Source: Methanosphaera sp. BMS (GTDB lineage Archaea; Methanobacteriota; Methanobacteria; Methanobacteriales; Methanobacteriaceae). From it: DNA of 64,000 nucleotides. This document shows positions 13,038-32,751 of this stretch, in pieces. Location of the stretch: positions 2,687,501 through 2,751,500 of the forward strand of contig NZ_CP014213.1 in the NCBI RefSeq assembly GCF_003268005.1, read 5' to 3'. Numbering within the stretch: position 1 is the stretch's first letter; each line of letters begins with the position of its first letter. The position numbers and the translations under genes were made by a program. The notes below the pieces were generated by a model, which saw nothing but the letters and a program-made list of their open reading frames with translations, was not told the DNA's origin and ran no database searches.

Positions 13038-15524
13038 TTATGTGATAGTCAATGATTTGGAGGAGTATTTGATTGGATTGGATTGTGTGTTTCCGTTGTA
13101 GTTAATTGTTATCTCATATACTCCAGGGTTCATGTAGTTTGGTATTGTGTATTCCCATTTTGCCAGTCCTTTTGTTATGTTTTTGGTTGTGTATACTTCT
13201 TCGAAGAATTCCGTGATTAATGGTACGGTTTTTCCATTTACTTTGAAGACATATTTTCCACTTATGACTGGTGTTTTGGTGTTTTTGTTGGTTAATGTTG
13301 CCGTTAGGTTCACAGCTTTACCTGGTGTTGCTTTGATAGGGTTTATTTTTACAACTACGTCCTGTTTGGATATGTTTATTGTTGAGTTGATGACTTTTGT
13401 GTTGTATCTGTAGTTTTCACCGAGGGTTATTTTGAATTTGTTTTCGCCCGGTGGTAGGTAGGGTACGATTATTTCGGTGTCAAGTATTGAGTTTGATACT
13501 GTGAGTGTTTTTACTGTTCTGTCTCCTAGTTTTATTGCTACTTGTGTGTTTCCGTAGATTTTGTTTCCGTTGGTGTCTGTTAGTGTTTGTTTGATTCTGA
13601 TTTTTTGTTCACTTGTTCCGTTTAGTTTTATTGTGAATGTTTTGTATGTTCCTTTGTTAACTGTCATTTTGGTGCTGTTTTCTGCTCTGTTGAATCCTGT
13701 TTTTGAGAATATTGCTGTTACTGTGTATTCTTTTCCACTGTAGCTTGCAAGTGTCATTGTAAGGGTACCTTTACCGTTTTTGATGGTTATTGCGGATGTC
13801 TGTGTGTTGATGTCTTTTATGCTTAATCCGTTTATTTTAACTACTGCTGTTCCGTTTACTGCTTTTTTGGCAGTGTCGGTTATTGTTAGGTTGATTTTGA
13901 TTGTTTTTCCTGTGTCAACCTTTTTAGGTGCCTGGATTGTGATAATGGCATCTTTTTTATCAAATGGGGATGTGTTGTTGAATACTGTGATGTTTTTTAG
14001 GTTTTTACCTACTTTAACAGCCTTGTCACCATACAGGTCATTTGCTACTAAATCATTGTTTTTAACACATGTATTATTGGTATTGTCTACACATACGCCT
14101 ATTGATTTATTCTGTTTGTCAAATATTTTTATATTATTTCCACTTACAACCGTGTTATCGGCTTCAATCTGTACATGTATACCTGTATTTGCAGGTCTGA
14201 TGTCTTCTACGATATAGTTAACGGTAGTTAAACTGTTACCTGTCAGGTTCATTTCATTATTGGTATAGTTGTTGTTTCCACAACGTGAACTACCAATACC
14301 CATTGAATATAAACCTTCTCCGGTTATGTTGTTGGAGTCATAGTTACTGTCAGAACATCTGAATACTTCAATACCATATGTAATTGTGGAGTTCAGTACA
14401 ATCTTATTGTTTTTAACGGTTATGTTGTATGATGGTCCACCACCCATACAAGTGGTGATAATACCAAATCCTATAGCTTCGTTATCATCTGTAAAAACTG
14501 TTTTGTTAAAACAATAACCGTATACATCATTATTTGCTATTAAAGAATTGGTTACGCTATTACCCATCTGAATTCCATCAACATATCTTTCACCGTAAGC
14601 TGATACTTTGTTGTTGATTACTTTTACATCATCAAGGCATCTTAACACGTTTATAGCATAAACGAATCTGCCTTCAGTTACATTAACTGTATTGTTTCTG
14701 ATGGTTATGTTGGATGGTATGCTACTTGGATCACCCTGTACTTCTATTCCATCAATTGAACCATAGTTTTCGTTTACTCCATCTTTAGCAAGTGTGGCAA
14801 ATACCTTGTTGTTTTCGATTGTGGAATTAGCACCACTGGTAAAGATTCCTAAGGTGTAAGGTAAATCTTCACGGTCACCACTACCCCATGTGATATCTTT
14901 TGCAGGACCATATACCTTAACGTTGTTGTTTGCTATGAGTACATTGTTGGCTTCATTTTTTATACCTTCTGTTATGCCATCGGTTTTTGTTATACTGATA
15001 TTGTTATTTGTTATTTTAACTCCTTCAGCCTCATTGAATATGGCACTATTAAATTCGTCGACATTTATATCAAGAATAGTAATGTTTGTTATCGTGTTGT
15101 TTCCTGCATCTTCGGTTATATAGATTTGTCCATTGTTAATTATTGAGTTTTTTTCTCCAATTAATGTGATTCCCGGTTTGTCTATGAAGAAGTTTTTTCC
15201 ATTAAATTCTCCTGATAGTTTGATTGTATCATTTGCTTGAACTATCTTGGTCGTTGACCAATCATCTTGGGCGAAATATCGTCCATAGTTATCATCATTA
15301 ACAGTATATGTTGATGATTTAATATTTTTGGTTTCTTTTGCAATATCCGATTGTTTTGTTGTCGTCAAATCAACATTATTATCCATACTCATGTCTGATA
15401 TATCTGCTTCAACTTGAATGTTATCTGTTGATATTTGTGTTTCATCACTAGCAGACACAGCACTAAGTGTGATAATTAAAGCAATTAAGGATACGACAAA
15501 AAGAAGTGTTTTTCTTTTATTCAT
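13038..15524 (-). CDS. Adhesin-like surface protein (beta-helix plus Ig-like repeats)
   Basis: 828 residues with a signal peptide (hydrophobic core LLFVVSLIALIITLSAVSA). Residues 75-515 carry many short repeats of the form NNxI or NNxV, such as ANNNVKVYG and ITIRNNTVNV, typical of a right-handed parallel beta-helix. Residues 520-828 form Ig-like beta domains. No C-terminal membrane helix or sortase-type motif is seen, so anchoring is unexplained. The last third is almost identical in DNA and protein to the 30.3 kb adhesin, while the N-terminal parts are clearly related but diverged. Such proteins are presumed to mediate contact with gut microbes, host or substrate; the ligand is unknown. Confidence 0.8.
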   Translation of the reverse strand: MNKRKTLLFVVSLIALIITLSAVSASDETQISTDNIQVEADISDMSMDNNVDLTTTKQSDIAKETKNIKSSTYTVNDDNYGRYFAQDDWSTTKIVQANDTIKLSGEFNGKNFFIDKPGITLIGEKNSIINNGQIYITEDAGNNTITNITILDINVDEFNSAIFNEAEGVKITNNNISITKTDGITEGIKNEANNVLIANNNVKVYGPAKDITWGSGDREDLPYTLGIFTSGANSTIENNKVFATLAKDGVNENYGSIDGIEVQGDPSSIPSNITIRNNTVNVTEGRFVYAINVLRCLDDVKVINNKVSAYGERYVDGIQMGNSVTNSLIANNDVYGYCFNKTVFTDDNEAIGFGIITTCMGGGPSYNITVKNNKIVLNSTITYGIEVFRCSDSNYDSNNITGEGLYSMGIGSSRCGNNNYTNNEMNLTGNSLTTVNYIVEDIRPANTGIHVQIEADNTVVSGNNIKIFDKQNKSIGVCVDNTNNTCVKNNDLVANDLYGDKAVKVGKNLKNITVFNNTSPFDKKDAIITIQAPKKVDTGKTIKINLTITDTAKKAVNGTAVVKINGLSIKDINTQTSAITIKNGKGTLTMTLASYSGKEYTVTAIFSKTGFNRAENSTKMTVNKGTYKTFTIKLNGTSEQKIRIKQTLTDTNGNKIYGNTQVAIKLGDRTVKTLTVSNSILDTEIIVPYLPPGENKFKITLGENYRYNTKVINSTINISKQDVVVKINPIKATPGKAVNLTATLTNKNTKTPVISGKYVFKVNGKTVPLITEFFEEVYTTKNITKGLAKWEYTIPNYMNPGVYEITINYNGNTQSNPIKYSSKSLTIT
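13048..13976. repeat. Direct repeat copy A (929 bp) flanking the NRPS cassette
   Basis: This segment matches 30272-31200 with only scattered substitutions and no length change; the two copies are offset by exactly 17,224 bases. It encodes the Ig-like C-terminal part of the adhesin. Identity ends abruptly at both edges, which suggests gene conversion or a recent segmental duplication. Both copies have the same orientation. Confidence 0.9.
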
Positions 15525-15983: not shown

Positions 15984-17873
15984 TTATTTTTTAACTTTAA
16001 TTATTAATAATGTCATATCATCAAATTGTTCCATGTCTTTGGAAAAATTATTTATGTCACAGATTAAACTATTTATTATGTCCCCGTTTTTATTTGTGTT
16101 TATATGATGCAATATTCTTTCTTCACCATATAATTCATCATTGGCATTTTGAGCATCTGTAATTCCATCCGTATAAAGAATCATTTCCTCTTCCAATTCA
16201 ATTTCATGATTAGTATACTCATAATCCTCCCATACTCCTAGCACTATCTCCGAATCAATATCAAGTAATTCATAGTTTTCATTGTTTTTTATTATTGGAG
16301 GTGTATGGCCTGCATTGGCATAGGTTAATTTATGAGTTTTATTGTTGTATATTGCTAAAAATAATGTGATAAACATCATCTCTGTATTGTTTTCACAAAT
16401 CTGATTGTTCACATCAGTTAACACTTTACCCGGATTAAGTTCATTTTTTATCAGCAGTTTAATTGACTGTTGGGTAATTATTGTAACTATCGCCACTGGA
16501 ACACCCTTACCTGAAGCATCACCAATGACAATCATGGTATTGTCCTCATCGATTTCATAGAAATCATAGAAGTCTCCACCAACTTCCCTTGCAGCCCTGC
16601 AATAACCTTCTACTTTGATATGCTTGTTGTCTATGATGTTTTTGGGTAATGTGGCTAGCTGTATGTTGTGTGCAATATTCAATTCTGTTTCAATACGTTG
16701 TTTTTCCGATTCAAGATGTTTTAAGTTTTCAATATAATCATTGTTGTAATTAATCAAGTCAGTATAACTTCTTGAAAGAATACCTATTTCATCATCCTGA
16801 TCCACATATTCAGAGTAAATATCCAATAGGGTATCCGATTCTATCTTTTCATGTTTTTTAATCAATGTTCCTATTGTTGAAAATGATTTTATTGGAGTTA
16901 CAATCTTATCCTCAATATACTTCAATATTAACAATGCAGGTATGAAAAACATTAGAATAATCACATCTATTATCAATAGCATAATCAAATACTGTTGGTT
17001 TGTTGCTATGAAATTTAATAAACTTGACAATCCATCTCTTAATGGGCTAAATATTACCGTAATCTCAACAACCAATACTATCAACGTTACTGTGGCGAAG
17101 TAATTCATTATTTTTTCAGGAATCGATACATATTCTATCTTGTTCAGGTATTTGATTGGTTTTTTAATGTATATGATTAACAATATTATCGTTACGATTG
17201 TAAAAAGCATATTAAGATTATAAGTATTATATGAAAAATCGGATATAATATTTATAATTACACTGATTGCTATTATATAATATATTATTACATATTTTTT
17301 TTCATCGTATGTTTTTTCAGATATTTCAGGAGTATATGAAAAATCCTTTAATTGACTTATCAACATGAATATAATAGTGAATAGGAATGCATAGTTAACA
17401 AAATTTGTAAAGTACTGTAATCCTATATGGAAATTCAAACCCATTGACTCAGGATAGCACATCTCAATTATGTTCGCGGTCAATGTTGAATATAACAATC
17501 CACATTCATTTACCATGATTATCAGATAAATCATGTTATATATATTGTTCAATCTGGGTTTGGTAATTGGGAATCTTTTCGGATTCTTAGTATACCATAA
17601 TTTGTAGGCCAAGTATGATACTAAAAAACTCACAATAGCAGATAAGACGGCTAGTTGTATCGAGTAACCTCTAAACAAGTCACAGATAAAATTGGCTATT
17701 ACAGCACCTATACAACCGTATGGACCGAAGAATAGTCCGGAGATAAATAATATTCCCAGATGTGGATTTAATTCTCCACCAAAATTTGGGGCAGTAACTA
17801 AATAGAAGTAACCCAAATCAAATATCATCATCAGAATAAACGGTATAATAAAATTTTTTATTTTATCTTTCAT
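15984..17873 (-). CDS. Membrane-bound SpoIIE/RsbU-type serine phosphatase
   Basis: 629 residues. The first 325 or so contain about nine to ten hydrophobic segments forming a membrane sensor. A HAMP-like/coiled-coil linker (about 330-405, with VTPIKSFSTI and an ESEKQRIETELNIAH helix) follows. Residues 410-629 form a PP2C-type phosphatase with the metal-binding motifs AREVGGDFYDFY, IGDASGKGV, YTDGITDAQN and FDDMTLL all intact. In bacteria such enzymes dephosphorylate STAS antagonists. The start ATG overlaps the upstream kinase stop by 4 bases, so it is translationally coupled. It is the last gene of the NRPS operon; the STAS protein two genes upstream is the obvious substrate. The signal sensed is unknown. 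Confidence 0.88.
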   Translation of the reverse strand: MKDKIKNFIIPFILMMIFDLGYFYLVTAPNFGGELNPHLGILFISGLFFGPYGCIGAVIANFICDLFRGYSIQLAVLSAIVSFLVSYLAYKLWYTKNPKRFPITKPRLNNIYNMIYLIIMVNECGLLYSTLTANIIEMCYPESMGLNFHIGLQYFTNFVNYAFLFTIIFMLISQLKDFSYTPEISEKTYDEKKYVIIYYIIAISVIINIISDFSYNTYNLNMLFTIVTIILLIIYIKKPIKYLNKIEYVSIPEKIMNYFATVTLIVLVVEITVIFSPLRDGLSSLLNFIATNQQYLIMLLIIDVIILMFFIPALLILKYIEDKIVTPIKSFSTIGTLIKKHEKIESDTLLDIYSEYVDQDDEIGILSRSYTDLINYNNDYIENLKHLESEKQRIETELNIAHNIQLATLPKNIIDNKHIKVEGYCRAAREVGGDFYDFYEIDEDNTMIVIGDASGKGVPVAIVTIITQQSIKLLIKNELNPGKVLTDVNNQICENNTEMMFITLFLAIYNNKTHKLTYANAGHTPPIIKNNENYELLDIDSEIVLGVWEDYEYTNHEIELEEEMILYTDGITDAQNANDELYGEERILHHINTNKNGDIINSLICDINNFSKDMEQFDDMTLLIIKVKK

Positions 17874-18250
17874 ATTTTCACATTTTTTATTATTGTCATA
17901 TGATTTTTGTTATCTTTATATTCATAATACATTTCATCTGCAAGATTTTTTACCAGATGGATTCCTAAACCCCCAATTTTTGCATCTTCAATGTTGTCTG
18001 GAAGTTCAGGAGATTCAACTATCAACGGATTGAATTCATTTCCGTCATCTTCGAATTTAATCGTCAGCATATTTTCATCCAACTCAAAACTTGCTATTAT
18101 ATAGCTGCATTCGGAGTAATTGGCTATGTTGACGAATATTTCTTCAATAATTAATCGGACATCAAAGTTATTTAAATTAAATTCTTTTTCGAAAAATTCA
18201 TTCAATCTATTTAACTCTTCTATTTTGGGATATAATTTAATGGATTTCAT
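17870..18250 (-). CDS. RsbW-like serine kinase (HATPase_c_2, anti-sigma-factor type)
   Basis: 126 residues, about the size of RsbW/SpoIIAB. GHKL ATPase motifs are complete: N-box EEIFVNIANYSE, G1 FEDDGNEFNP and G2 GGLGIHLVKNLADEMYY. In bacteria these proteins phosphorylate a STAS antagonist and sequester a sigma factor. Archaea have no sigma factors, so its partner must be something else. It overlaps the STAS gene upstream and the phosphatase gene downstream by 4 bases each, showing tight coupling of the three switch components. Confidence 0.88.
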   Translation of the reverse strand: MKSIKLYPKIEELNRLNEFFEKEFNLNNFDVRLIIEEIFVNIANYSECSYIIASFELDENMLTIKFEDDGNEFNPLIVESPELPDNIEDAKIGGLGIHLVKNLADEMYYEYKDNKNHMTIIKNVKI

Positions 18251-18546
18251 TGTATCGTCAATAATTTATCAAACCCTGACATTCTGAATATCTCTTTTAG
18301 TGTTTCATTAACATTTATGATTGTTAACGGTGTGTCAGTGCTTTTTAATTTCTTTTGTGTGGCTATTAATAAACGTAGTCCAGCACTTGAAATGTATTCT
18401 AATTTTTCAAAGTCTAATGTTAGCGAATCAATGTTTTTGATATCTTCATTCAATGATTCTTCTAGTTGCTGTGAAGTAATGGTATCTATACGACCTTCCA
18501 CTTGTACTGTTAAATCGTTATCAGAATATGTCTTATTAATGTTCAT
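18247..18546 (-). CDS. STAS-domain anti-sigma-factor antagonist (RsbV/SpoIIAA-like)
   Basis: 99 residues forming one STAS domain. The hallmark phosphorylation segment is LEYISSAGLRLLIATQK, with the conserved Ser in SSAG as the predicted kinase/phosphatase target. The end GFDKLLTI is typical of the family. The ATG is preceded by AGAGACTGAT. It lies 64 bases after the MATE-ATPase gene and overlaps the kinase gene by 4 bases. It should be phosphorylated by the adjacent RsbW-like kinase and dephosphorylated by the SpoIIE-type phosphatase; binding to the RsbW-like domain of the MATE fusion is an inference. Confidence 0.9.
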   Translation of the reverse strand: MNINKTYSDNDLTVQVEGRIDTITSQQLEESLNEDIKNIDSLTLDFEKLEYISSAGLRLLIATQKKLKSTDTPLTIINVNETLKEIFRMSGFDKLLTIQ

Positions 18547-18610
18547 TTATATCAGTCTCTTTTTAATCTTTATTTTACAATTTACAAAAGATTATTGTAT
18601 GATTATATGT

Positions 18611-20353
18611 CTATACTTGTTTATAATTATTTTTTTTTACAGTTATTATGGTACTGTTTAAACCTAATACTCGGGTATAATCTATCTTGTCTGCTATTTT
18701 ATTTAATACGGATATGTTATCGAACTTTAATTGATCTGATTCAATAACAGGGTTATATTCAACACCATCATCCTTTATGGATAAGATAATCTCTTCTTCA
18801 TTATCCTTAAGGTATAAATCAATAGTTCCCATAGATTCATTTAATTGAACAATGTTTGTTAATATTTCTTCCACTGCAAGACTTACACGGGTTGAATCAA
18901 GGTTATCTCCAAGATATTTGTTAATTTCACCGGATAATCCAACCGCTTCTTTGATGTTGGCATTTATTGTGTAATCAATGAAGTTCTTTTCATCCGATGA
19001 TTTGTTTATGAATAATCCATGATATTTTCCGTCGCTTTTTTTGTTAATGTATCTGGAATATCCGATTATGCATAGCAATACAGCTACTTCACTAACAAAA
19101 AATGAAAGCCATATTCCCAAATCACCCAATGCAAATACTAATATTACAAGTGATATCAATGGAAAGATTAAACCCTCAATAATTTGCATGATATTTGCTA
19201 TCTTATCCTTTTGTATGGCCTGTGCATAGAATATATACAGGAAATTAATTCCCAATGCAAGAAAACTTAATGAGAATAGTCGAACTGCATTCATTACATA
19301 TGGGATATATTCGGGGTTTTTTACCTTAAATAACAGCAGTAATATCTGAGGATAAATTGTAAGTATTGCAACAAAGACTAAGCTTACCACTATCATCATC
19401 TTCAAAGACTTGCTAGTCACATAGTCCACTCCAAGGTAATCCTTTTCCTTATAATAAACGCTTACAATAGGTGACATTGACTGTGCTATTCCAATAATGA
19501 ATATTGATATGATAAACAGGCTGTTATAGCACATGTTAAATGCAGCTAATCCAAGTGCACCTGCTATGTTTAATAGGATTATGTTGATTACATACAGCTT
19601 AATTGTAAGATATAACTGGGTTGATGCAGTTGAATACCCTGACTTACATATGTCCTTCAGGTACTTAATCATTGATAAAACACTTATTTTAATAAATTTA
19701 AGCGTTCTTGACTTTCTAAAGAAGTATGTAGACATGCATATTGAACCGATAATGAAACTGGTGGTGGTTGCTAATGCAGCACCTTCCAAACCTAGATTCA
19801 GGTAGGATATGAATATCACGTCTAATACCAGATTGCTAGCATTTGATATTACAAGTGATATGAATGGAAGCTTTAAAAATCCATCCGCTCGTATAAAGTA
19901 ACTCATTGACATCATATAGCACAGGAATGGTATACCTAATATATAGTACTTGAAAAATTGACCTACCAATGGTCTTAAGCTATCTGAAGAACATAATACA
20001 TGCAGTATGTTGTTGGAAAACAGTAAGCAAATCACTGTAATTACTATTCCAATAATAATCATGGACACTATCGATGAAGTGAATAGTTCATCACTTTTTT
20101 TGTTATCGAATTCCGCCTTTGCTATAGAACAAACTAGACTGCCCCCCAAGCCTATCATCCAATATAGTAAATTCAGTAAAGTTGAAACGGGTTCAATAAT
20201 CTGCATAACAGATAGGTTTATAACCCCAATCAGCATGCTAACCAATATTGAATCTATAAATATACTGATGTTACCCGCCATTGAAGTAAAAAGTGTGGGA
20301 ATTAAAAATTCCCTAAACTTAGTATTAATCAAATCATAATTTCTTTTATACAT
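18611..20353 (-). CDS. MATE-family efflux transporter fused to a C-terminal RsbW-like ATPase domain
   Basis: 580 residues. Residues 1-440 have about twelve hydrophobic segments and MATE features such as IPTLFTSMAGNISIFIDSI and the repeat-half start STASTQLYLTIK. Residues 457-575 are a cytoplasmic HATPase_c_2 domain with N-box VEEILTNIVQLNES and G1-like IKDDGVEYNPV. The Gly-rich G2 loop (GGLGI in the stand-alone kinase downstream) is missing, replaced by FDNISVLNKIADKI, so it may bind STAS without kinase activity. MATE proteins export small molecules using Na+ or H+ gradients. It lies 32 bases after the NRPS gene in the same operon, so the NRPS product is the likely cargo. Confidence 0.85.
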   Translation of the reverse strand: MYKRNYDLINTKFREFLIPTLFTSMAGNISIFIDSILVSMLIGVINLSVMQIIEPVSTLLNLLYWMIGLGGSLVCSIAKAEFDNKKSDELFTSSIVSMIIIGIVITVICLLFSNNILHVLCSSDSLRPLVGQFFKYYILGIPFLCYMMSMSYFIRADGFLKLPFISLVISNASNLVLDVIFISYLNLGLEGAALATTTSFIIGSICMSTYFFRKSRTLKFIKISVLSMIKYLKDICKSGYSTASTQLYLTIKLYVINIILLNIAGALGLAAFNMCYNSLFIISIFIIGIAQSMSPIVSVYYKEKDYLGVDYVTSKSLKMMIVVSLVFVAILTIYPQILLLLFKVKNPEYIPYVMNAVRLFSLSFLALGINFLYIFYAQAIQKDKIANIMQIIEGLIFPLISLVILVFALGDLGIWLSFFVSEVAVLLCIIGYSRYINKKSDGKYHGLFINKSSDEKNFIDYTINANIKEAVGLSGEINKYLGDNLDSTRVSLAVEEILTNIVQLNESMGTIDLYLKDNEEEIILSIKDDGVEYNPVIESDQLKFDNISVLNKIADKIDYTRVLGLNSTIITVKKNNYKQV

Positions 20354-20385
20354 TCAAAATACGCCCTCTTAAAGTATGTCGTCGA

Positions 20386-23300
20386 TTAGAAAAAATCCAC
20401 ATCACGTAGGTGCTTGATGAAGTTATAGATGTACTCCTTATCAATGAGTGGCCATACTATGCCCATACGATATAATGATTGGATTGTGAATTTATTGTCC
20501 ACGGGAAGCCATTTGCTTTTAATTTGACCTTCACCGACATTGGTGATGATACCTGATAATGCATCCTGTTTGGTTTCATCATTAAGTGCATCTTGCAGTG
20601 CTTCCTGATACTCCTCCTCTTCACAGCATTCAATATTAATATTTAAATCCCTGATTATCTCGATAACATCCGCAAAAGTTACAGTATGTGAATTATATGT
20701 ATGGAATACCGTACATTCTTTTGGTGTTTTTGATAATTCAACAATGGATTTGGCTGTAATGTCAATAGGGCTGAATTCAACAGGATTATCCAACATGTCA
20801 TATGACATTTTACCGATATTGACAAATGCCTTGAGTCTGTTTATAAATCCATTGGATTGATAATTGATTTGGAATTCACTGTCGGAGCTTCTTGCCATCA
20901 GGTTACCGGCACGCATGATTTTAACATCCATGTCATCTTCAACTGCCGCTTCAAGTATTGCACGTTCAGCAAGGAATTTACTGTTTAGATAAGCATTATC
21001 CAGATTTTGACCAATATACAGTTTATCTTCGGTAAATATTTCATCTTCCGGTGGGAAGTTATCTATACTTAAACCGGCAACACTATATGTGGAAACCTGC
21101 ACATATTTACATTCTTTTAATTTGGCAAATTTAAGTCCATTGATTACTCCTCCAAGGTTAATGTCCTCGATATCAGTACTGTTGGAGAAGTGTTTGACGT
21201 TAGCTGCACAGTTGATGATGGTATCGACGTTATATGTCATCATCTTCTCAAAATCACTAAATGAGGTGATGTCTGCTTCAATAACATGCAGTCGTTTGCC
21301 GAACAATTCCGAATAATCCTCTGAGAAGTAATAGAAGAGTAATGACTTGAGTCTGTCCTCTCCGGATAAACTTCCATGTGATCTTACGAAACAATATATA
21401 TTGCCGTCCTGAGTATTAATCAGCTCTTTAAATACGTGTATTCCTAAAAATCCTGTAGCACCTGTAAGCAATATATCTCCAAGTGAATCATCCATGTCTT
21501 TATTGACAAGATACTTCAAGTTGTTCTTTTTAAGTAATTTATTTATTTGTTCATAATCATACTTGCTTTCTTCCGCAACTTTTGTTGACGCACCATTGTA
21601 TACGAAATCCGCTAATTGTCTTGGTGTAGGATTTTTAAACACGTCACCATAGTAGACTTCATAATTCCTGTTTATTGCGGCCATCGTAATTTTTGTAACA
21701 AGCAGTGATGTACCACCTATCTCGAAGAAATTATCCGTTACGCTTACCTTGTCTAAGTCCAATATTTCTGCAAATGCATTGGCAAAGAATGCCTCAACAT
21801 CATTTTCAGGAGCAACATATTTTCTTATTAATTCAGGTTCTGGAAGATTCTTAAGATCTGTTTTTCCATTTAATGTCTGTGGCATCTCATCCAGTTGCAT
21901 GTATACTGTTGGAACCATGTAATATGTTAATTTCTCAGATAATGATTTTTTCAATTCATTAATATCAAATGAGAATTCATTGGATTTTCTGTGTGCATCA
22001 AAGTATTTGTCACCAACGGTAAAGTATGCACATAAATGCTGATTGTTTTTTATCTTTCGTACAACAACTGCAACATCCTTTATGGCTTCATACTTAGATA
22101 TGGCAGATTCAATTTCTCCAATTTCTATTCTTAATCCTCTGAGTTTTATCTGATTGTCTAAACGTCCCTGTATGTAAACATTTCCATCATCTGCTCTTTT
22201 TGCAAAGTCTCCTGATTTGTAGAATCTGACGTTGTTTATTTCAGTGTATGCTTCTTTGTTTTTCTCCGGACGATTGAGGTATGCTCGTGACACACCACTA
22301 CCTGCAATGTATAGTTCACCGATTACATTTGAAGGAAGTGGATTTGAGTCATAGTCCATAATTTCTTCATGAACATTAAACAATGCCTTTCCAACTGTTA
22401 TGTTTTCATTTTTAAGTTCCACGGTGTTACAGCTGATGGTTGTTTCCGTCGGACCATAAACGTTAAATAGTTTGGCATCGGTCTTTTCTCTTAACAATTC
22501 GTATAAGCGTTTAGGGAATGCTTCACCTGCAATGGAATAAACCTTGAACTTGTACATTTCATCTTTTATTTCATCTATATCCAGGTATTGGAGTAAACGT
22601 GATGGTGTAGCAGTGTAAACGGTAACATCATACTTTTTGATAAGATCCAATGTCTTTTTAGGGTCCTTGTATTCATCATCATCGGCAAATACTACCGGAA
22701 CACCATTTAATGTTGCACACATCAGTTCATGTAGGAATAAATCGAATGCTACTGTGGCATTGGATAGTACTCTGTAGTCTTCTTTTTTGTAGTTTGTTGC
22801 CAGTTCATATGTGTACACATTATCTGGGTGTGGGTACGTGAAGTTTGCCAGGTTTCGATGTTCCAGCATTACTCCCTTAGGTACTCCTGTTGAACCTGAA
22901 GTATATATCAGGTATGCCAAGTTTTCCCCTTTAACATCACTTTCAGGATTTGATGTATTTTCCTCTTCCAATAAATCATTGATATCCAGCAGATGTTCTT
23001 TATATTCACTTAAGTCAATGTTTTTGATTTCAACGATATCGTCCGTTATTATGTATTTGGAATTACTGTCTGTCAGTACGTGTTCTATTCTGTCTTTAGG
23101 ATAGTCTGAGTCTATTGGTATGAATGCAGCTCCTGCCTTTAATATTCCAAACATTGATGCAATAAAGTTGCTGTTTCTTTTTAAAACAATCATGACCTTA
23201 TCTTCTACACCAACGCCTAGTTTGATTAGTGCATTTGCTATCCTGTTTGCCTTCGTATTTAGCTGGTTGAATGTGTATGTGCCGTCACTGGCATATAATG

Positions 23301-26300
23301 CCATGTCTTCACTATTTTCTTTGACACAGTTTTCAAATATTTTATTAATTCTGTATTCTGGTATTGCTTCGATTTCAATGTCATCAATTGATATACAGTC
23401 TTTTTCTACTATTGAAATGCTATTTAATGGAGTGTTTTCATTGTATGTGATGAATTTATTTAACACTATATTAAAACTATCTACAAAGGTATTTATCAAA
23501 TCATCAGAGTATAATTCATTGTTGTATTGACATATGACCTTATATTCATCTCCAATATCCTCTATTTGGACACCCATATTGAATTTTAAGAAGTTATAAT
23601 CTATAAATTCACGTTTTACACTTCTCGAATCTATTTCAATGTTTTCATTAATCATACCCTGATAAGTATAAAGGAATTCCGGGGTTATATCATAATCGCT
23701 GGAAATCTTCGTTAATGGATATGAAGAGTATGTTAATACGTTTAACCATTCCTCATTTATATAACTTAAGTAATCGCTGATTGACAGTTCTGTATTTAAC
23801 TTTAATGCTAATGGTAATGTTTTAACCATCATTGCCAGAGTCTTTTCTTGTGCTTTCGTGTATCTTCCATTGGAAAGGGTTGCTATTAATACATTTTTAT
23901 TATATACAAATTTTGATAATACAAATGATGTAACGGCCATGAATAGATTGTTTGGATTGATGTTGTGTTCATCACAGAATCTGTTAATATCCTCCTTTTT
24001 AAGATAACTGGTTTTTTCCAGAGATACTCCATTCTCCTTTTGGCCATTTAAATCAGGAGAAATAAGAGTAGCTTCTTCAAACTCCTTGATTTTATCAAAG
24101 AAGAATAGTTCGGCCTCTTTATAAAGGTTTGATTTTTCTATTTTTGCTTCGTTTAATGAATATTCAAATCCGTCAATTTCTTCTATTGTGTAATCTTTGT
24201 CATCATAGATTTTGGCTATTTCATCAAAGAATATGTTAAGTGATGTACCATCCATTATGATATGGTGGAAATCCGCTAGCAATGTGGTATTTTCACATAT
24301 TTTAAAGCGGAATAATGGGCCTTCATCAAGTACAAATGTTTTTACAAAGTTGTCTTCATCCGCAGGATCATCCGTTATTTCAACAAATTCGTCTATTGTA
24401 AGGTTATCTCTTCTTTCCTGATATACTTCTCCATCATTCATGATTATCCTGGTTTTTAGATATGGATGATTATTGATGGCTGTTATAATCGCTGATTTTA
24501 ATTTATGAGGGTCGATTTCACTACCAAATTCAATTTTAATCGGCATGTTGTATGATAAATCTTCCGGTTTTTTAACGCACTCGAAATATACTCCCAATTG
24601 ATTAGGGGTTAACGGATACATATTTTGTGTATCATATTCTTCTATTTTGTCCTCTTTGATTAGCATTGAAATTTTTTCTATGGTCTTGCTTTTCATTACT
24701 TGAGTTATCATCAGTTGGGTTTTAAATTCCTCATAAATCTCAGATACTACTTGCATCATGGTTAATGAGGTTAGACCTATGGTAAACAGGTCGGTATCCA
24801 CACCGAATGAGGATATATTCAGAATTTCTGAGATGATGTCCCATAGTTTTTCTTCAATTTCATTGCTTGGGTTCTTGTAATTATCAATGTCTGTCTGTGG
24901 TTCTGGCAAGTTCTTCAAGTCAACTTTATCATTTGGCGTTCTAGGGAATTTATCTAATTCAGTAAAGAACGTTGGAATCATATAATAGACCAATGAATCT
25001 TCTAATTTTTCCCTGAGCTTGTCTATGTCGATAGAATACTCATCATCTTTCTTGTATTCCTCATAAACTGTGTAGTAGGCACATAAGTAATCGTTATCAT
25101 TAATGTTTCTTACCACAACGGCAACATCTTTTATTGCTTCACATTTGGATATGGCTGATTCAATTTCTCCAATTTCAATTCTCAAACCTCTAAGTTTAAT
25201 CTGATTGTCTAATCTTCCATAAACATATATTTGTCCATCTAAACCTCTTTTTGCAAGGTCTCCTGACTTATAATATCTGATGTCGTTTATTGTCGTGTAT
25301 GATTTGGCATTGTTTTCAGGACGATTGTGATATGCACGTGACACACCTAAACCTGCTATGTACAGCTCACCAATAACATTTGTTGGCAGTGGATTTGAGT
25401 CAAGATCCATTATCTGTTCTTTGACATTAAATAGTTCCTTTCCAACTGTGATGTTATTGTTGCTAAGTAATGCTGTGTTACAACTTATTGTGGTTTCCGT
25501 TGGTCCATATACATTGAATATATGGGCATCAGTATTTGCACTTAAATCCTCGTATAATCTGTTAGGGAATGGTTCTCCTGCTATAGCATATACTTTAAAC
25601 TTAAGCATGTCCTTTCTTATCTGTTTAATCTGCAGATATTGGAGTATTCTTGAAGGGGTTGCAGTATAAACGTTTGCTTTGTATTTTTCAACAAGTTCCA
25701 TGGTGGCTTTAGGGTCTTTATATGTGTTGTCATCAGCCAGTACTATAGGCACTCCATTCAGCAATGAACACATTGTTTCTTCCAGGAATACGTCGAATGC
25801 TACTGTGATTGTTGACAGTACCCTGTAGTCTTCTTTTTTGTAGTTTGTTGCCAGTTCATATGTGTACACATTATCTGGGTGTGGGTACGTGAAGTTTGCC
25901 AGGTTTTGATGTTCCAGCATTACTCCCTTAGGTAGTCCCGTTGAACCTGAAGTATATATCAGATATGCTAGGTTGGATTCGGTCACATTGGTTTCCGGAT
26001 TTTTGGTGTTTTCCTCTTCCAGCAAATCATTTATATTTAACAAGTAATTGTTGTATTCGCTTAAATCTAAATTTTTAATCTTTATTATTTCATCTGTTAT
26101 GATGTATTTGGAATTACTGTCTCTTAAAACGTGTTCTATTCTGTCTTTAGGATAGTCTGAGTCTATTGGTATGAATGCAGCTCCTGCCTTTAATATTCCA
26201 AACATTGATGCTATGAAGTTACTGTTTCTTTTGAGTATTATCATAACCTTGTCTTCAATATTAACTCCCTTTTTTATAAGTGCATTTGCTATTCTGTTTG

Positions 26301-29300
26301 CCTTGTTATTCAATTGGTTAAATGTGTATCTGCCATCACATGCATATACTGCTACATCATCACCATTTTCTTCTACACATGATTCAAAAATCTTATTTAC
26401 CCTTTTTTCTCCAATATCAATGTATTCAAGATCAGTTGGTGTCCAGTTATCCTCTTCGGTAATGGATATCTCTTTTAATTGTGTATTGTTGTACAGTGTT
26501 ATGAATTTTTCAACTACAATTCTTATGGAGTTAAGTAGTATGTCAATGTATTCATCTGAGTATAATTGATCGTTGTATTCACAGTTGATGTTATATTTAT
26601 CATCTATCTCTTCTACATTTATCATTATCTTGAACTTGACTCCTGAATCTCCTATAGCTTCTCTTTTAATGGTCATTCCATCCATATGTATATCTTCAAT
26701 AATTTTTCCTTGATAGGCATATAATATTTCGGGTGTTATGTTAAGTTCATCAGAAATTCTAGTCAACGGATATGATGAGTTTGCAAGAACATCCAACCAT
26801 TGATTGTTAATATAATGTAGATATTGCTCTATGGTAAATGAACTGTCTAAATTTAATGCAAGTGGAAGGGTTTTAACCATCATTGCCAGTGTTTTTTCCT
26901 GATATGGATTAAATCTGCCATTTGAAATTGTAGCTATTAACAGATCTTTATTATATACAAACTTTGAAAGTACCAGTGATACCACAGATAGGAATAGGTT
27001 ATTTTGACTGATGTTATTTTCATGACAGAAATTATCTATCTTATCCTGATTAAATAAGATGTCCTTAACTTTAACATTTGCTAAATTTTCATCACCATTA
27101 ATGTCTTGAGGAATAACGGTTGCTTCATCAAAGTCTTTGATTTTATCTTCAAAGAATTTTTTAGCTTCATTGAACTTATGGGATTCTTCCATCTTCAATT
27201 CATTCAGTGTATATTCATAACCATCCATTTGTTCTAATTCGTAATCCTTGTCATCATATATCCTGGCTATTTCATCAAAGAGTATATTTAGGGATATTCC
27301 ATCCACTATCAAATGATGGAAATCGGCAAGTAACATATTTTTTTCCACAATCTGGAATCTGAACAACTTTTCTTCATCAAGTTTAAACGGCCTTACAAAC
27401 TCATTTACATTAAGCTCATCGGTTATCTGGATTAATTCATTGATATTTGAGTCATCATCTCTTTTTTGATAGATTGTTCCATCTTTCATTACAATTTGTG
27501 TTTTGAGATATGGATGATTATTTATGGCCTGGATGATTGATGATTTAAGTTTGTCCGGGTTGATTTCATGTGTGTATCTCATCATCTTTGGCAGATTGTA
27601 TGTTAAGCTGTCAGGGTTTTTCATACAATCAAAGTATACTCCCAATTGGTTTGATGTTAAAGGGTAATATTCCTGTTTTTCATATTCGACTTTTTCTTGA
27701 CTGCTTATCTGGGATGCGATTTCTTCAATGGTTCTGTATTTTAAAATATCGGTCACATTTAATTCTATCTTAAGATTTTTATACAGATGGGTTATCAGTT
27801 TGATAACGGATAATGATGTTAAACCAATGCTGAAAAGATTGGTATTGACTCCGAATTTGTCAGTGTTCATGATTTTGGATACAATTGAATATATCTCTTC
27901 TTCAATATTATTTCTAGGCAGTATGATTTCCTCATCTGTTACAACTGGTTCGGGTAGTTTCTTGAAATTAATCTTACCGTTTGGCGTTTTAGGGAATGTA
28001 TCAAGTTGGGTATAATATGATGGAACCATATAATCCGGAAGAGTTAGGCCTAGTTGTTCCTTGAGTTTATTTATGTCAATCTCATTACTTGCAGTGTAAT
28101 ATGCACATAAGTGTTCCACATCATTTACCTTTTTAACCATTACTTTGCTTAATGTGATGTTTTCATAGTTACTGATGGCAGTCTCTATTTCGGATAGTTC
28201 TATTCTTAAACCTCTAAGCTTAATCTGGGTGTCATTTCTTCCTAAAACATACAGTTCTCCATACTTATCTTTTTTACCTAAGTCTCCGGTATTATAGTAG
28301 GGGATGTTGTTTATTGTGGAAAATACTTTATCGGTCTGTTCTTGATTGTTAAGATATCCTCTTGCTATTCCCGCTCCACCTACATAAATTTCACCGGTAA
28401 CATACGGGGGGAGTTGATTTCCATCAATATCCATGATTTTATCAACTACATTTAGCATAGACCAACCGGCGGTAACATTAGGATTATCCATTAACTTGTA
28501 ATGTGATGCAATTGTAACTTCTGTAGGTCCATATGAATTATATATTAAAGCGTCGGTATACTTGGATAAGTTATCATATAATACAGGTGGGAATGACTCT
28601 CCACCTACAATGATTATTTTACACTTTTTGACAGCTTCCTGAATTTCCTTAAGTTCCAAGTACTCGAGCAATCTTGTTGGTGTGGATCCAAAACCATCCG
28701 CGGCAGTCTTTTCAAATAATTTAACCAGTTTAAGTGGATTGATTGATTCCTCATCATTAGCAAATACCACAGGCAGTCCATTTAAGATAGTACCAAAGAT
28801 TTCCCTTAGGAATACTATAAAAGATACGGTTGAAATTGATATGAATTTTTCACATGCATGATTGAGTTGATATATTGGCTGATTTTCCTCTACATTGGCA
28901 ATGTAGTTTGATATTCCCCTATGGGTAATCATAACTCCTTTAGGTTTGCCTGTAGAACCGGATGTGTAAATTAGGAAACACAGATTATCCGGATTTAAAT
29001 TAACAGGGGGATTACTGTCGTCATTGTTATTTAATAGTTCCTCTACATTTATTCTATTTTCGCCATCATAGTCAATATCCTTACTTGTTATAACATATCT
29101 TGAATCACTATCTTCAAGTATCTGATTTATCCTTTTTTCAGGATATTTTGGATCAATTGGTATAAATGCCGCTCCTGCTTTAACAATTCCCAGTACTGTA
29201 GCTATCAGGTCGCTGTTTCGTTTCATCATGAACATTACTTTGTCTTCAACTTGCACGCCTCTTTGTATTAATCCATTGGCAATCTTATTTGCTTTACTAT

Positions 29301-30000
29301 TTAATTGGGAATATGTGAAATTACCATCCTCTGCATATAATATTGTCTTATCAGGATTTTCTTTGACTGCATTTTCAAATATCTTATTAATCAATCCTTC
29401 ATTGGCCAGTTCGATTTTAAAATCTTCATCCATATCCATCTCTTCAACAATAGAAATGTTTTTCAATAATTCATTTTCATTGTTGAACTTAGCAATCAAT
29501 ACATTTAAAGCATGTAAAAATGCATCAATTAGTTCTTTTGAATAGGATGAGGAGTCATATTCCACAATTATCTTTTCATCGTCGTATGATAATATGAATT
29601 TATAACTTTCCTTTGAATAGTCACTTGTTGCAAATAAAATTTCGCTTTCAAAGTTTATTTCTTCATCATCGGAATAATCATTGTATTTTGTTTTAAAATC
29701 AGTGAGATATTCACTTACAGATAAATTTGTATTGAAATGATATCCTGCTGCTTGTCTGTTATAAGTTATCAGAATATCTTTTGAAAAAGAGAATTTTACA
29801 AGATTAAATATGAATATTGCAAGTAATATGTTATCTTTTGCCATTTCATATTTGTCTGTTAACTCATTAATTTTATCCTGGTATTCAATTGTTGATGTTA
29901 AATAACTTGTTTGGCTATCTTTTACATCGGGTGAAATTGTTGTCGGATAATCGAATGAATTTATCAATGTATAAGTATTGTCTGGTTTATCAATTTTCAT
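20386..30000 (-). CDS. Three-module non-ribosomal peptide synthetase with terminal thioester reductase
   Basis: 3204 residues, cytoplasmic. Order: half condensation-like region (about 1-200), A1 (213-690), carrier 1 (IGLTSL near 721), C (HHLIVDG near 898), A2 (1203-1680), carrier 2 (IGLTSL near 1740), C (HHIIMDG near 1915), A3 (2220-2700), carrier 3 (IGGTSL near 2762), and an SDR-type reductase with GATGFLG near 2850 and YLNSK near 3005. All A domains have the TSGSTGxPKG loop and an A10 lysine. It should join three building blocks and release the product as an aldehyde or alcohol. A1 has Ile where the alpha-amino-binding Asp235 of GrsA lies, while A2 and A3 keep FD. Modules 2 and 3 share near-identical DNA blocks. 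No phosphopantetheinyl transferase lies in the window. The start is ATG with a weak GGGAT upstream. Leahy et al. reported a related NRPS with MatE and switch genes in Methanobrevibacter ruminantium, from memory. Confidence 0.95.
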   Translation of the reverse strand: MKIDKPDNTYTLINSFDYPTTISPDVKDSQTSYLTSTIEYQDKINELTDKYEMAKDNILLAIFIFNLVKFSFSKDILITYNRQAAGYHFNTNLSVSEYLTDFKTKYNDYSDDEEINFESEILFATSDYSKESYKFILSYDDEKIIVEYDSSSYSKELIDAFLHALNVLIAKFNNENELLKNISIVEEMDMDEDFKIELANEGLINKIFENAVKENPDKTILYAEDGNFTYSQLNSKANKIANGLIQRGVQVEDKVMFMMKRNSDLIATVLGIVKAGAAFIPIDPKYPEKRINQILEDSDSRYVITSKDIDYDGENRINVEELLNNNDDSNPPVNLNPDNLCFLIYTSGSTGKPKGVMITHRGISNYIANVEENQPIYQLNHACEKFISISTVSFIVFLREIFGTILNGLPVVFANDEESINPLKLVKLFEKTAADGFGSTPTRLLEYLELKEIQEAVKKCKIIIVGGESFPPVLYDNLSKYTDALIYNSYGPTEVTIASHYKLMDNPNVTAGWSMLNVVDKIMDIDGNQLPPYVTGEIYVGGAGIARGYLNNQEQTDKVFSTINNIPYYNTGDLGKKDKYGELYVLGRNDTQIKLRGLRIELSEIETAISNYENITLSKVMVKKVNDVEHLCAYYTASNEIDINKLKEQLGLTLPDYMVPSYYTQLDTFPKTPNGKINFKKLPEPVVTDEEIILPRNNIEEEIYSIVSKIMNTDKFGVNTNLFSIGLTSLSVIKLITHLYKNLKIELNVTDILKYRTIEEIASQISSQEKVEYEKQEYYPLTSNQLGVYFDCMKNPDSLTYNLPKMMRYTHEINPDKLKSSIIQAINNHPYLKTQIVMKDGTIYQKRDDDSNINELIQITDELNVNEFVRPFKLDEEKLFRFQIVEKNMLLADFHHLIVDGISLNILFDEIARIYDDKDYELEQMDGYEYTLNELKMEESHKFNEAKKFFEDKIKDFDEATVIPQDINGDENLANVKVKDILFNQDKIDNFCHENNISQNNLFLSVVSLVLSKFVYNKDLLIATISNGRFNPYQEKTLAMMVKTLPLALNLDSSFTIEQYLHYINNQWLDVLANSSYPLTRISDELNITPEILYAYQGKIIEDIHMDGMTIKREAIGDSGVKFKIMINVEEIDDKYNINCEYNDQLYSDEYIDILLNSIRIVVEKFITLYNNTQLKEISITEEDNWTPTDLEYIDIGEKRVNKIFESCVEENGDDVAVYACDGRYTFNQLNNKANRIANALIKKGVNIEDKVMIILKRNSNFIASMFGILKAGAAFIPIDSDYPKDRIEHVLRDSNSKYIITDEIIKIKNLDLSEYNNYLLNINDLLEEENTKNPETNVTESNLAYLIYTSGSTGLPKGVMLEHQNLANFTYPHPDNVYTYELATNYKKEDYRVLSTITVAFDVFLEETMCSLLNGVPIVLADDNTYKDPKATMELVEKYKANVYTATPSRILQYLQIKQIRKDMLKFKVYAIAGEPFPNRLYEDLSANTDAHIFNVYGPTETTISCNTALLSNNNITVGKELFNVKEQIMDLDSNPLPTNVIGELYIAGLGVSRAYHNRPENNAKSYTTINDIRYYKSGDLAKRGLDGQIYVYGRLDNQIKLRGLRIEIGEIESAISKCEAIKDVAVVVRNINDNDYLCAYYTVYEEYKKDDEYSIDIDKLREKLEDSLVYYMIPTFFTELDKFPRTPNDKVDLKNLPEPQTDIDNYKNPSNEIEEKLWDIISEILNISSFGVDTDLFTIGLTSLTMMQVVSEIYEEFKTQLMITQVMKSKTIEKISMLIKEDKIEEYDTQNMYPLTPNQLGVYFECVKKPEDLSYNMPIKIEFGSEIDPHKLKSAIITAINNHPYLKTRIIMNDGEVYQERRDNLTIDEFVEITDDPADEDNFVKTFVLDEGPLFRFKICENTTLLADFHHIIMDGTSLNIFFDEIAKIYDDKDYTIEEIDGFEYSLNEAKIEKSNLYKEAELFFFDKIKEFEEATLISPDLNGQKENGVSLEKTSYLKKEDINRFCDEHNINPNNLFMAVTSFVLSKFVYNKNVLIATLSNGRYTKAQEKTLAMMVKTLPLALKLNTELSISDYLSYINEEWLNVLTYSSYPLTKISSDYDITPEFLYTYQGMINENIEIDSRSVKREFIDYNFLKFNMGVQIEDIGDEYKVICQYNNELYSDDLINTFVDSFNIVLNKFITYNENTPLNSISIVEKDCISIDDIEIEAIPEYRINKIFENCVKENSEDMALYASDGTYTFNQLNTKANRIANALIKLGVGVEDKVMIVLKRNSNFIASMFGILKAGAAFIPIDSDYPKDRIEHVLTDSNSKYIITDDIVEIKNIDLSEYKEHLLDINDLLEEENTSNPESDVKGENLAYLIYTSGSTGVPKGVMLEHRNLANFTYPHPDNVYTYELATNYKKEDYRVLSNATVAFDLFLHELMCATLNGVPVVFADDDEYKDPKKTLDLIKKYDVTVYTATPSRLLQYLDIDEIKDEMYKFKVYSIAGEAFPKRLYELLREKTDAKLFNVYGPTETTISCNTVELKNENITVGKALFNVHEEIMDYDSNPLPSNVIGELYIAGSGVSRAYLNRPEKNKEAYTEINNVRFYKSGDFAKRADDGNVYIQGRLDNQIKLRGLRIEIGEIESAISKYEAIKDVAVVVRKIKNNQHLCAYFTVGDKYFDAHRKSNEFSFDINELKKSLSEKLTYYMVPTVYMQLDEMPQTLNGKTDLKNLPEPELIRKYVAPENDVEAFFANAFAEILDLDKVSVTDNFFEIGGTSLLVTKITMAAINRNYEVYYGDVFKNPTPRQLADFVYNGASTKVAEESKYDYEQINKLLKKNNLKYLVNKDMDDSLGDILLTGATGFLGIHVFKELINTQDGNIYCFVRSHGSLSGEDRLKSLLFYYFSEDYSELFGKRLHVIEADITSFSDFEKMMTYNVDTIINCAANVKHFSNSTDIEDINLGGVINGLKFAKLKECKYVQVSTYSVAGLSIDNFPPEDEIFTEDKLYIGQNLDNAYLNSKFLAERAILEAAVEDDMDVKIMRAGNLMARSSDSEFQINYQSNGFINRLKAFVNIGKMSYDMLDNPVEFSPIDITAKSIVELSKTPKECTVFHTYNSHTVTFADVIEIIRDLNINIECCEEEEYQEALQDALNDETKQDALSGIITNVGEGQIKSKWLPVDNKFTIQSLYRMGIVWPLIDKEYIYNFIKHLRDVDFF
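22772..22919. repeat. Intragenic near-identical block in NRPS A3 (pair of 25823-25970)
   Basis: About 148 bases matching 25823-25970 with only a few substitutions, offset 3,051 bases (1,017 codons, one module). It spans the A3-motif region of adenylation domains 3 and 2. A further block near 23101 matches 26152 at the same offset. Confidence 0.85.
25823..25970. repeat. Intragenic near-identical block in NRPS A2 (pair of 22772-22919)
   Basis: The partner of the block in adenylation domain 3. Flanking parts of the two modules are clearly diverged, so the high local identity suggests gene conversion after module duplication. Confidence 0.85.
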
Positions 30001-30261
30001 ATGTATCCCATAATCATTTATTAATTAAGTTTATGTTTAATCAAATATTTAAATATGAATTATTTTATTGATAAACCTTTATACAATGGTTTTTTATAAT
30101 GATTGGTGTTATAAATAGAAATAAATGAATTTGATATGATAATGTAATTGTAATGATGAATGTTTACATAGCCGTAATTAAAAGAGGGATATTTAACAAT
30201 TAACCATAAAAAAGAAAAAATGGGAGATGAATGTTTAACTCATTTAAAAATTAAGTATTGT

Positions 30262-32751
30262 CTATGATATCGTCAATGATTTGGATGAGTATTTGATTGG
30301 ATTGGATTGTGTGTTTCCGTTGTAGTTAATTGTTATTTCATATACTCCAGGGTTCATGTAGTTTGGTATTGTGTATTCCCATTTTGCCAGTCCTTTTGTT
30401 ATGTTTTTGGTTGTGTATATTTCCTCGAAGAATTCCGTGACTATTGGTACGGTTTTTCCATTTACTTTGAAGACATATTTTCCACTTATGACTGGTGTTT
30501 TGGTGTTTTTGTTGGTTAATGTTGCCGTTAGATTTACTGTTTTACCTGGTGTTGCTTTGATAGGGTTTATTTTTACAACTACGTCCTGTTTGGATATGTT
30601 TATTGTTGAGTTGATGACTTTTGTGTTGTATCTGTAGTTTTCACCGAGGGTTATTTTGAATTTGTTTTCACCAGGTGGTAGGTAGGGTACGATTATTTCG
30701 GTGTCAAGTATTGAGTTTGATACTGTGAGTGTTTTTACTGTTCTGTCTCCTAGTTTTATTGCTACTTGTGTGTTTCCGTAGATTTTGTTTCCGTTGGTGT
30801 CTGTTAGTGTTTGTTTGATTCTGATTTTTTGTTCGCTTGTTCCGTTTAGTTTTATTGTGAATGTTTTGTATGTTCCTTTGTTAACTGTCATTTTGGTGCT
30901 GTTTTCTGCTCTGTTGAATCCTGTTTTTGAGAATATTGCTGTTACTGTGTATTCTTTTCCACTGTAGCTTGCAAGTGTCATTGTAAGAGTACCTTTACCG
31001 TTTTTGATGGTTATTGCGGATGTCTGTGTGTTGATGTCTTTTATGCTTAATCCGTTTATTTTAACTACTGCTGTTCCGTTTACTGCTTTTTTGGCAGTGT
31101 CGGTTATTGTTAGGTTGATTTTGATTGTTTTTCCTGTGTCAACCTTTTTAGGTGCCTGGATTGTGATAATGGCATCTTTTTTATCAAATGGAGATGTGTT
31201 ATTTTTGATGGTGGTCTTACTTGAATTGGTACTTACCACAGAATTATCTCCATACAGATTATCTGCAACCAAGTCGTTATTGAATACGTTAACGTTATCG
31301 CAGTTTCTTATATAAACTGCTTTGGAATTATTGTTGCGGTCTGTTGCTCTGACTTTATTGTCTTTAACTATTATGTTGTCGGATGCTTCCTGTATATGAA
31401 TACCGTTATTGGATGGGGGAATGTACTCTGCGAGGGTAGAATTTCGGGCACTGTTTCCGCTTAATGTCATTTCATTGTTTGTTATGTTGCTGTTTTTAGA
31501 ACCGGATAGTCCGATACCCATGGCATATTCACCACTTACGTTCATTGTATTGGAATCTATGTTGCTATTGTGGACGTTGTATATTTCAAATGCATATCCG
31601 ATTTGTGCATCTATTTTCACATCATTGTTTTTTATGGTTATGTTTTCCGTTCCACTTGCCACTGTATTTGTTGCTATTATTCCAAAGCTTACAGTATCTT
31701 CATCAGGTGTGGCGTTGATGATTCTTGCATCAACCTTATTGTTTTGAATCAGACAGTTGGTAGCTTTATCACCTAATTGTATGCCATTGCTATATCTGAT
31801 ACTTGTGGCAGTGATATTATTGTCCAATACTTTGATGTTGTCTATGGAGTTTAAGACATTGATTCCATATACAAATCTTGCATCGCTTACATGTACATTA
31901 TTATTTTTGATTGTTACATTGGATATGATTTCTTCAGGATATCCCTGTACTTCTATCGCATCTATTGTACCTGTAAATTCATCAACGGCATCTTTATGTT
32001 TTTTTGCAGTAACGGTATTATTTTCAATAAGGGTATTGTTTGCTTGGTTAACTATTCCAAAGGTAAATGCCATATTTTTACGTTCTGCATCATCAAAGTT
32101 AATGTTCTTTGATGGTCCTTCCACATTCACGATGTTATTTACTATTATTACATTTTTTGCTTCATTACGTATGCCTTCGGTCACGCCATCGGCATTTTTC
32201 AGTGTAACCTTATTGTTTGTGATATTGGTGTTTTCTGCCAGATTCAGAATTGCATTATCATAATCGGTTGTCGTGATTGTAATGTTTGATAACAGGTTAT
32301 TTCCGGCTTCATCCGATATTATTATCTGTCCGCCAGTAAGTTTTGCATTATTTCCTATAACCTTCAATCCAACCTTGTCTATGTAGAACTCCATGTCCTT
32401 AAATGTTCCGGATAGGATTATGGTATCGTTTTCCTTAACATTTTTGGTCGTTGATCCATCTCCTAAATCGAAATATCTTCCAATATTTGTTTCATCGACG
32501 TTATAGGTTGCTTTTTTAATATTTTTTGATTCTTTGTTTATGCTTGTAGTCTCTTGTCGTGTTTTTAACTCATCCTGTGTATCCATGGGTATGGATGTAT
32601 CCTGAATGTTAATATCCTGTGAATTTGAATCAATATCATCTACTTCGCCATAGTCCTCTGGATTCATTTGACTGGCTGATACTGTGGATATACCTAAAAT
32701 AAGTATTAATAGCGATATTAATAGGATTATCTTATCTGTATTTTTATTCAT
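30262..32751 (-). CDS. Adhesin-like surface protein (beta-helix plus Ig-like repeats), paralogue of the 13 kb adhesin
   Basis: 829 residues: signal peptide (IILLISLLILILGISTVSA), an acidic/polar linker, beta-helix repeats at about 85-515 with NNxV/NNxI turns, then Ig-like domains to the end. The C-terminal 310 residues differ from the 13 kb adhesin at only a handful of positions, including Ala to Thr in the PGKxVNL segment and the last residue, Thr to Ser. N-terminal halves align but are diverged, so binding specificity could differ on a shared stalk. The SD is CAGGAG. The gene lies 261 bases upstream of the NRPS on the same strand. The ligand and anchoring are unknown. Confidence 0.8.
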   Translation of the reverse strand: MNKNTDKIILLISLLILILGISTVSASQMNPEDYGEVDDIDSNSQDINIQDTSIPMDTQDELKTRQETTSINKESKNIKKATYNVDETNIGRYFDLGDGSTTKNVKENDTIILSGTFKDMEFYIDKVGLKVIGNNAKLTGGQIIISDEAGNNLLSNITITTTDYDNAILNLAENTNITNNKVTLKNADGVTEGIRNEAKNVIIVNNIVNVEGPSKNINFDDAERKNMAFTFGIVNQANNTLIENNTVTAKKHKDAVDEFTGTIDAIEVQGYPEEIISNVTIKNNNVHVSDARFVYGINVLNSIDNIKVLDNNITATSIRYSNGIQLGDKATNCLIQNNKVDARIINATPDEDTVSFGIIATNTVASGTENITIKNNDVKIDAQIGYAFEIYNVHNSNIDSNTMNVSGEYAMGIGLSGSKNSNITNNEMTLSGNSARNSTLAEYIPPSNNGIHIQEASDNIIVKDNKVRATDRNNNSKAVYIRNCDNVNVFNNDLVADNLYGDNSVVSTNSSKTTIKNNTSPFDKKDAIITIQAPKKVDTGKTIKINLTITDTAKKAVNGTAVVKINGLSIKDINTQTSAITIKNGKGTLTMTLASYSGKEYTVTAIFSKTGFNRAENSTKMTVNKGTYKTFTIKLNGTSEQKIRIKQTLTDTNGNKIYGNTQVAIKLGDRTVKTLTVSNSILDTEIIVPYLPPGENKFKITLGENYRYNTKVINSTINISKQDVVVKINPIKATPGKTVNLTATLTNKNTKTPVISGKYVFKVNGKTVPIVTEFFEEIYTTKNITKGLAKWEYTIPNYMNPGVYEITINYNGNTQSNPIKYSSKSLTIS
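30272..31200. repeat. Direct repeat copy B (929 bp) flanking the NRPS cassette
   Basis: Partner of 13048-13976, in the same orientation and without indels. Together the two copies bracket the complete NRPS-MATE-STAS-kinase-phosphatase operon. Confidence 0.9.

Follow-up and report, generated by a model that had tools for sequence, protein, structure and literature searches.

The window, that is the whole stretch of 64,000 nucleotides analysed here, covers G000:C1:2687501-2751500 of a source genome of 2,868,093 bases on a single contig (G000:C1). Its minus strand carries five neighbouring genes, encoding an NRPS, a MATE exporter, a STAS protein, an RsbW-like kinase and a SpoIIE-type phosphatase, all of which are found where a previous sequence-only reading had placed them. 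The features considered here are the following:

20386..30000, minus strand: NRPS, 3204 aa, domain order (C remnant)-A-T-C-A-T-C-A-T-R (Pfam and domain order)
18611..20353, minus strand: MATE exporter with fused C-terminal pseudokinase domain, 580 aa (MatE and weak HATPase_c_2 match)
18614..19048, minus strand: predicted RsbW/SpoIIAB-fold pseudokinase domain of the exporter, residues 436-580 (HATPase_c_2, hhalign, AF2 and Foldseek)
18247..18546, minus strand: STAS protein (anti-sigma antagonist-like), 99 aa (TIGR00377 over cut-off; Ser54 in YISSAGL)
17870..18250, minus strand: RsbW/SpoIIAB-like serine kinase, 126 aa, catalytic boxes intact (HATPase_c_2, 58 bits)
15984..17873, minus strand: membrane SpoIIE/PP2C phosphatase, 629 aa (SpoIIE, 150 bits; about nine N-terminal hydrophobic segments)
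30001..30261, minus strand: AT-rich region 5' of the NRPS gene, presumed promoter (sequence inspection only)
13039..13979, plus strand: 941-base direct repeat, left copy, inside an adhesin-like gene (98% identical to 30263-31203)
30263..31203, plus strand: 941-base direct repeat, right copy, in an adhesin-like gene (98% identical to 13039-13979)

The genes for STAS, kinase and SpoIIE overlap, as had been stated, by 4 bases at each of the two junctions (STAS/kinase and kinase/SpoIIE). The NRPS and MATE genes are separated by 32 bases, the MATE and STAS genes by 64 bases, and the length of the latter gap makes a separate promoter 5' of STAS possible. Pfam assigns to the NRPS three AMP-binding domains, two full condensation domains and an N-terminal remnant, three PP-binding domains and a NAD_binding_4 (reductase) domain; the C-A-T modules and the terminal R domain agree with the three-module NRPS with reductive release proposed earlier. 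The other locus proteins match MatE, STAS, HATPase_c_2 and SpoIIE, respectively. The codes of the adenylation domains are IVRGIGSI (A1), DVETAAVI (A2) and DLHTSAVI (A3). The first of these lacks the Asp at the amino-binding position, and the starter unit may therefore be other than an alpha-amino acid. A prediction of the product from these codes was dropped, as the codes do not give the product; it would presumably be a tripeptide aldehyde or alcohol.

A feature overlooked in the earlier reading is a HATPase_c_2-like C-terminal domain on the MATE protein. The match of its last 145 residues to HATPase_c_2 is weak (25.1 bits, cut-off 27.4), the profile is matched by the tail in 29 of 36 relatives, and the tail encoded in the GH3-type cluster of a genome without NRPS match (G107) reaches 46.3 bits, over the Pfam cut-off. 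Profile-profile comparison (hhalign) relates the tail to the stand-alone kinases with E-values of 4e-10 to 1e-11. A HMMER search of the tail against PDB sequences gave no credible match, and a search by fold was needed: with an AlphaFold2 model of the tail (pLDDT 73, pTM 0.72) as query, the top 18 Foldseek matches in the PDB all come from anti-sigma kinases, alone or in complex (UsfX, SpoIIAB, RsbW). The predicted fold of the MATE tail is that of the Bergerat/anti-sigma kinases.

The motifs of the stand-alone kinases are strictly kept, with E, N and GG.G invariant in 44 of 44 proteins. Of the exporter tails, about two thirds retain the N-box Glu and Asn. A GxG at the position of the G2 box is found in 0 of 93 distinct exporters of similar length, and their lid region mostly comprises about 10 residues, compared to a spacing of 20 residues in the 44 kinases. 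Since the G2 box is gone and the ATP lid is shortened, the tail is a pseudokinase. It might alternatively be a functionless relic, its neighbourhood being the result of inherited hitch-hiking. The loss of G2 box and lid, the further decay of some paralogue tails and the tail of M. ruminantium M1, which has been split off by a frame change, would fit such a relic. However, across 48 orthologues tail and transport part are conserved to the same degree (median identity 55% and 53%, respectively), and the tail is retained in several genera and in three types of cluster, making this explanation extremely improbable. The conservation of the tail does not by itself identify its binding partner.

The exporter matches the MatE Pfam domains over cut-off (85.6 bits), and simple hydropathy gives 10 segments; MATE family topology comprises 12 transmembrane helices and a cytoplasmic C-terminus. 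In M. ruminantium M1 (L082 13818-15553) MATE and tail form two ORFs with a 4-base overlap, the tail being a separate ORF because of the frame change, and a second locus (L144) is similarly split. A programmed frame switch was considered for these two loci and rejected, as the sites differ and no obvious slippery run is present. A tblastn search with two fused MATEs against plasmid records returned only MATE transport domains, with no match covering 80%; no fused exporter was found among viral contigs, and no description of a fused MATE-kinase-fold domain was found in the open-access literature.

Judged by sequence, STAS, kinase and SpoIIE are intact components of a partner switch. Ser54 of STAS is retained in 49 of 49 STAS proteins, and the metal-binding Asp residues of the SpoIIE PP2C domain are conserved (D434, D452, D569, D618, D619). 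The sensor part of SpoIIE yields a good model (pLDDT 80) with no significant match in the PDB; a resemblance to the ECF S-subunit TmRibU is no more than a hint (TM 0.64 by target, E 7.6).

Profile searches of the source genome identify a single SpoIIE, two HATPase_c_2 matches, namely the kinase and the MATE tail, and two STAS proteins, the second of which adjoins the sole 4'-phosphopantetheinyl transferase (PPTase). The genome also harbors two further NRPS clusters, each with a MATE of about 565 aa whose tail is more degenerate but related. One switch may therefore serve several exporters. A tail fragment is located at 2,111,760. In addition, a free copy of the tail is found at G000:C1:416677-416973 (L156 6717-7040), an ORF of 107 aa with no MATE part adjoining, perhaps a leftover or a protein that binds STAS on its own.

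Among the 151 Methanobacteriales genomes surveyed, 85 encode SpoIIE and 79 encode NRPS condensation domains. Both are present in 73 genomes, SpoIIE alone in 12, NRPS alone in 6 and neither in 60 (p 1e-22); common descent is handled only through within-genus tables, which give p 0.0014, 0.011 and 4e-11. The switch is thus mostly found together with an NRPS (73 of 85 SpoIIE genomes); the earlier reading had named the opposite, a switch mostly without NRPS, as speaking against its proposal. SpoIIE and the MATE tail co-occur in a similar manner (both 66, SpoIIE alone 19, tail alone 5, neither 61), and several of the genomes with SpoIIE or a clear MATE tail alone are incomplete drafts. In 35 of 67 genomes, no more than 20 kb separate SpoIIE from a MATE of this kind, compared to about 5 by random placement; the MATE list used for this count includes more degenerate tails, and the assemblies are fragmented. 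Of 73 genomes, 44 have a PPTase no more than 3.5 kb away from SpoIIE. In a near-complete Methanosphaera genome without NRPS match (G121), SpoIIE is broken and the PPTase has decayed.

The genomic arrangement is variable. The one-operon layout of the earlier reading is limited to the window species and a few others: the order NRPS-MATE-STAS-kinase-SpoIIE is present in the window, G138, G017, G016 and L153. In most Methanobrevibacter the genes are divergent, with SpoIIE-kinase-STAS facing away from NRPS-MATE with tail at about twenty loci. STAS-kinase-SpoIIE-PPTase distant from the NRPS is a further common layout, and in the nearest relatives with an NRPS-MATE pair of this type (G116, G130) the switch is on another contig. 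One locus (L214 9349-11559, G035) encodes a SpoIIE-kinase fusion of 736 aa adjoining STAS and PPTase. In another (L166, G142), a TPP enzyme is clustered with STAS, SpoIIE and kinase, possibly reflecting a different switch target. In L168 and L169 (G065 and G078), SpoIIE-STAS is followed by GH3, a RimK-type ATP-grasp, two ABC exporters and a second GH3; these switch-linked amide clusters have no kinase nearby.

Bacterial partner switches act on gene expression via sigma factors, which archaea, to our knowledge, do not possess. In the source genome, the profile search found no sigma-70 match that exceeds the cut-off, the top result for Sigma70_r2 being at E 0.55. A comparable neighbourhood in M. 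ruminantium, cited in the earlier reading, is indeed reported: in strain M1, an NRPS is described together with MatE, serine phosphatases, an anti-sigma antagonist, a kinase and a PPTase, and a role in sensing and in control of NRPS expression has been suggested (Leahy et al. 2010, PMC2812497). The NRPS clusters of M1 (L082, L083) contain the same part families as the window, but split over loci, and the MATE tail is not mentioned in the passages of that paper on which we draw (PMC2812497). Following this suggestion, the switch could control transcription of the NRPS cluster via some archaeal factor, for which the bacterial precedent and the divergent promoter region shared in many Methanobrevibacter speak. 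We regard this as quite improbable, as the source genome has no such sigma-70 match, no transcription factor is among the recurrent neighbours, and the kinase fold on exporter and GH3 would be left unexplained.

The NRPS is not a constant partner of the switch. In G107, which has no NRPS match, the gene order is STAS-GH3-GH3-MATE with tail-kinase-SpoIIE, and G132 has a related order. Four genomes encode tandem SpoIIE proteins beside MATE with tail, STAS and a fusion protein of 711 aa that ends in a kinase; Pfam analysis of one of the four gives GH3 and HATPase_c_2. In another group of MATE proteins with tail, the preceding ORF of about 565 aa (six ORFs, 52-82% alike) is an ATP-grasp in one member; the fused exporter is present in this group, and linkage to the switch is seen once. 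What these clusters have in common is an enzyme that forms amides and an exporter. The proposal that the switch controls synthesis or export of the peptide therefore needs to be widened beyond the NRPS, while its direction is supported by the NRPS co-occurrence, the lack of a sigma-70 match over cut-off and the kinase fold on the exporter.

That the kinase fold is fused to an exporter and elsewhere to a GH3 ligase speaks for an action of the switch on proteins of the pathway. These might be the enzymes of synthesis, with the activity of NRPS, PPTase or GH3 under post-translational control and the exporter secondary. The frequent PPTase in the switch operon and the GH3-kinase fusion would suit such control; yet MATE with tail still lies beside the switch in those GH3 clusters that have no PPTase nearby (L194, L192), and the pseudokinase sits on the exporter, so that we consider control of synthesis quite improbable. 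The target indicated by the evidence is the exporter and not a transcription factor; the earlier reading had named none. As the pump carries a dead copy of the switch kinase, the switch probably exerts its control on the pump itself and not on gene expression.

It is established for bacteria that RsbW-type proteins bind dephosphorylated STAS. Analogously, membrane SpoIIE would sense a signal and dephosphorylate Ser54 of STAS, and the kinase would put the phosphate back. Dephosphorylated STAS would dock onto the pseudokinase tail, on the cytoplasmic side according to family topology, and the tail should not phosphorylate it back because lid and G2 box are lost. Docked STAS may then license export of the NRPS product; that it permits export and does not block it is a guess. 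We consider it fairly probable that the module targets the exporter by such docking. The components, the fold of the tail, its motif loss and conservation and the genomic association are the basis on which we infer docking, sign, signal and product. Several observations count against the exporter as target: the 19 genomes with SpoIIE but no clear MATE tail and the 5 with the tail only, the more degenerate tails of the remaining MATEs linked to an NRPS (of which the source genome has two), and the fact that linkage of switch and NRPS is not obligatory within the genus.

Alternatively, the tail could recruit the stand-alone kinase rather than STAS. RsbW and SpoIIAB are dimers, and since the tail shares the fold of this family, the exporter pseudokinase and the stand-alone kinase may likewise form a pair. 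The kinase would thereby be held at the membrane near SpoIIE, with the exporter serving as scaffold or sensor, and a second copy of the fold fused to a GH3 enzyme in four clusters is in keeping with such recruitment. The present evidence is equally compatible with STAS docking, and we judge kinase recruitment to be unlikely. For docking of STAS on the exporter, generalization is slightly more probable than its opposite: in Methanobacteriales the partner switch would be a post-translational gate on small-molecule export, with STAS docking on the in-cis pseudokinase of an exporter. This would apply to NRPS clusters as well as to GH3 clusters, and perhaps also to the ATP-grasp group, and would make the exporter the first identified archaeal target of such a switch.

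The RsbU/RsbV/RsbW and SpoIIE/SpoIIAA/SpoIIAB systems of Bacillus share with the window a SpoIIE-type phosphatase, a STAS protein with conserved Ser and a GHKL serine kinase; in contrast to them, no sigma factor is present here, and an exporter bears a second, pseudokinase version of the kinase fold. SLC26/SulP transporters possess a cytoplasmic STAS domain and thus, like the MATE of the window, carry one half of a switch pair in cis, whereas here it is the degenerated kinase half, on a MATE carrier. Outputs other than a known sigma factor, such as secretion or biofilm, are discussed for BtrU/BtrV/BtrW (Bordetella), SypE/SypA (Vibrio fischeri) and RbaV (Rhodobacter) (reviewed in PMC8256260). 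If STAS docking on the exporter holds, partner switches of archaea without sigma factors acquire a concrete physical target, which STAS, kinase and MATE tail, all small and soluble, would suffice to test. It further suggests that rumen and gut methanogens regulate the release of peptide natural products and that one control module is reused with several amide-forming enzymes. The Btr, Syp and RbaV switches are bacterial, and we know of no fused exporter domain in them.

Finally, the 941-base repeat is present in two full copies in the genome, in the adhesin-like genes that flank the cassette. A crossover between both copies would delete the whole 17 kb NRPS-switch block.
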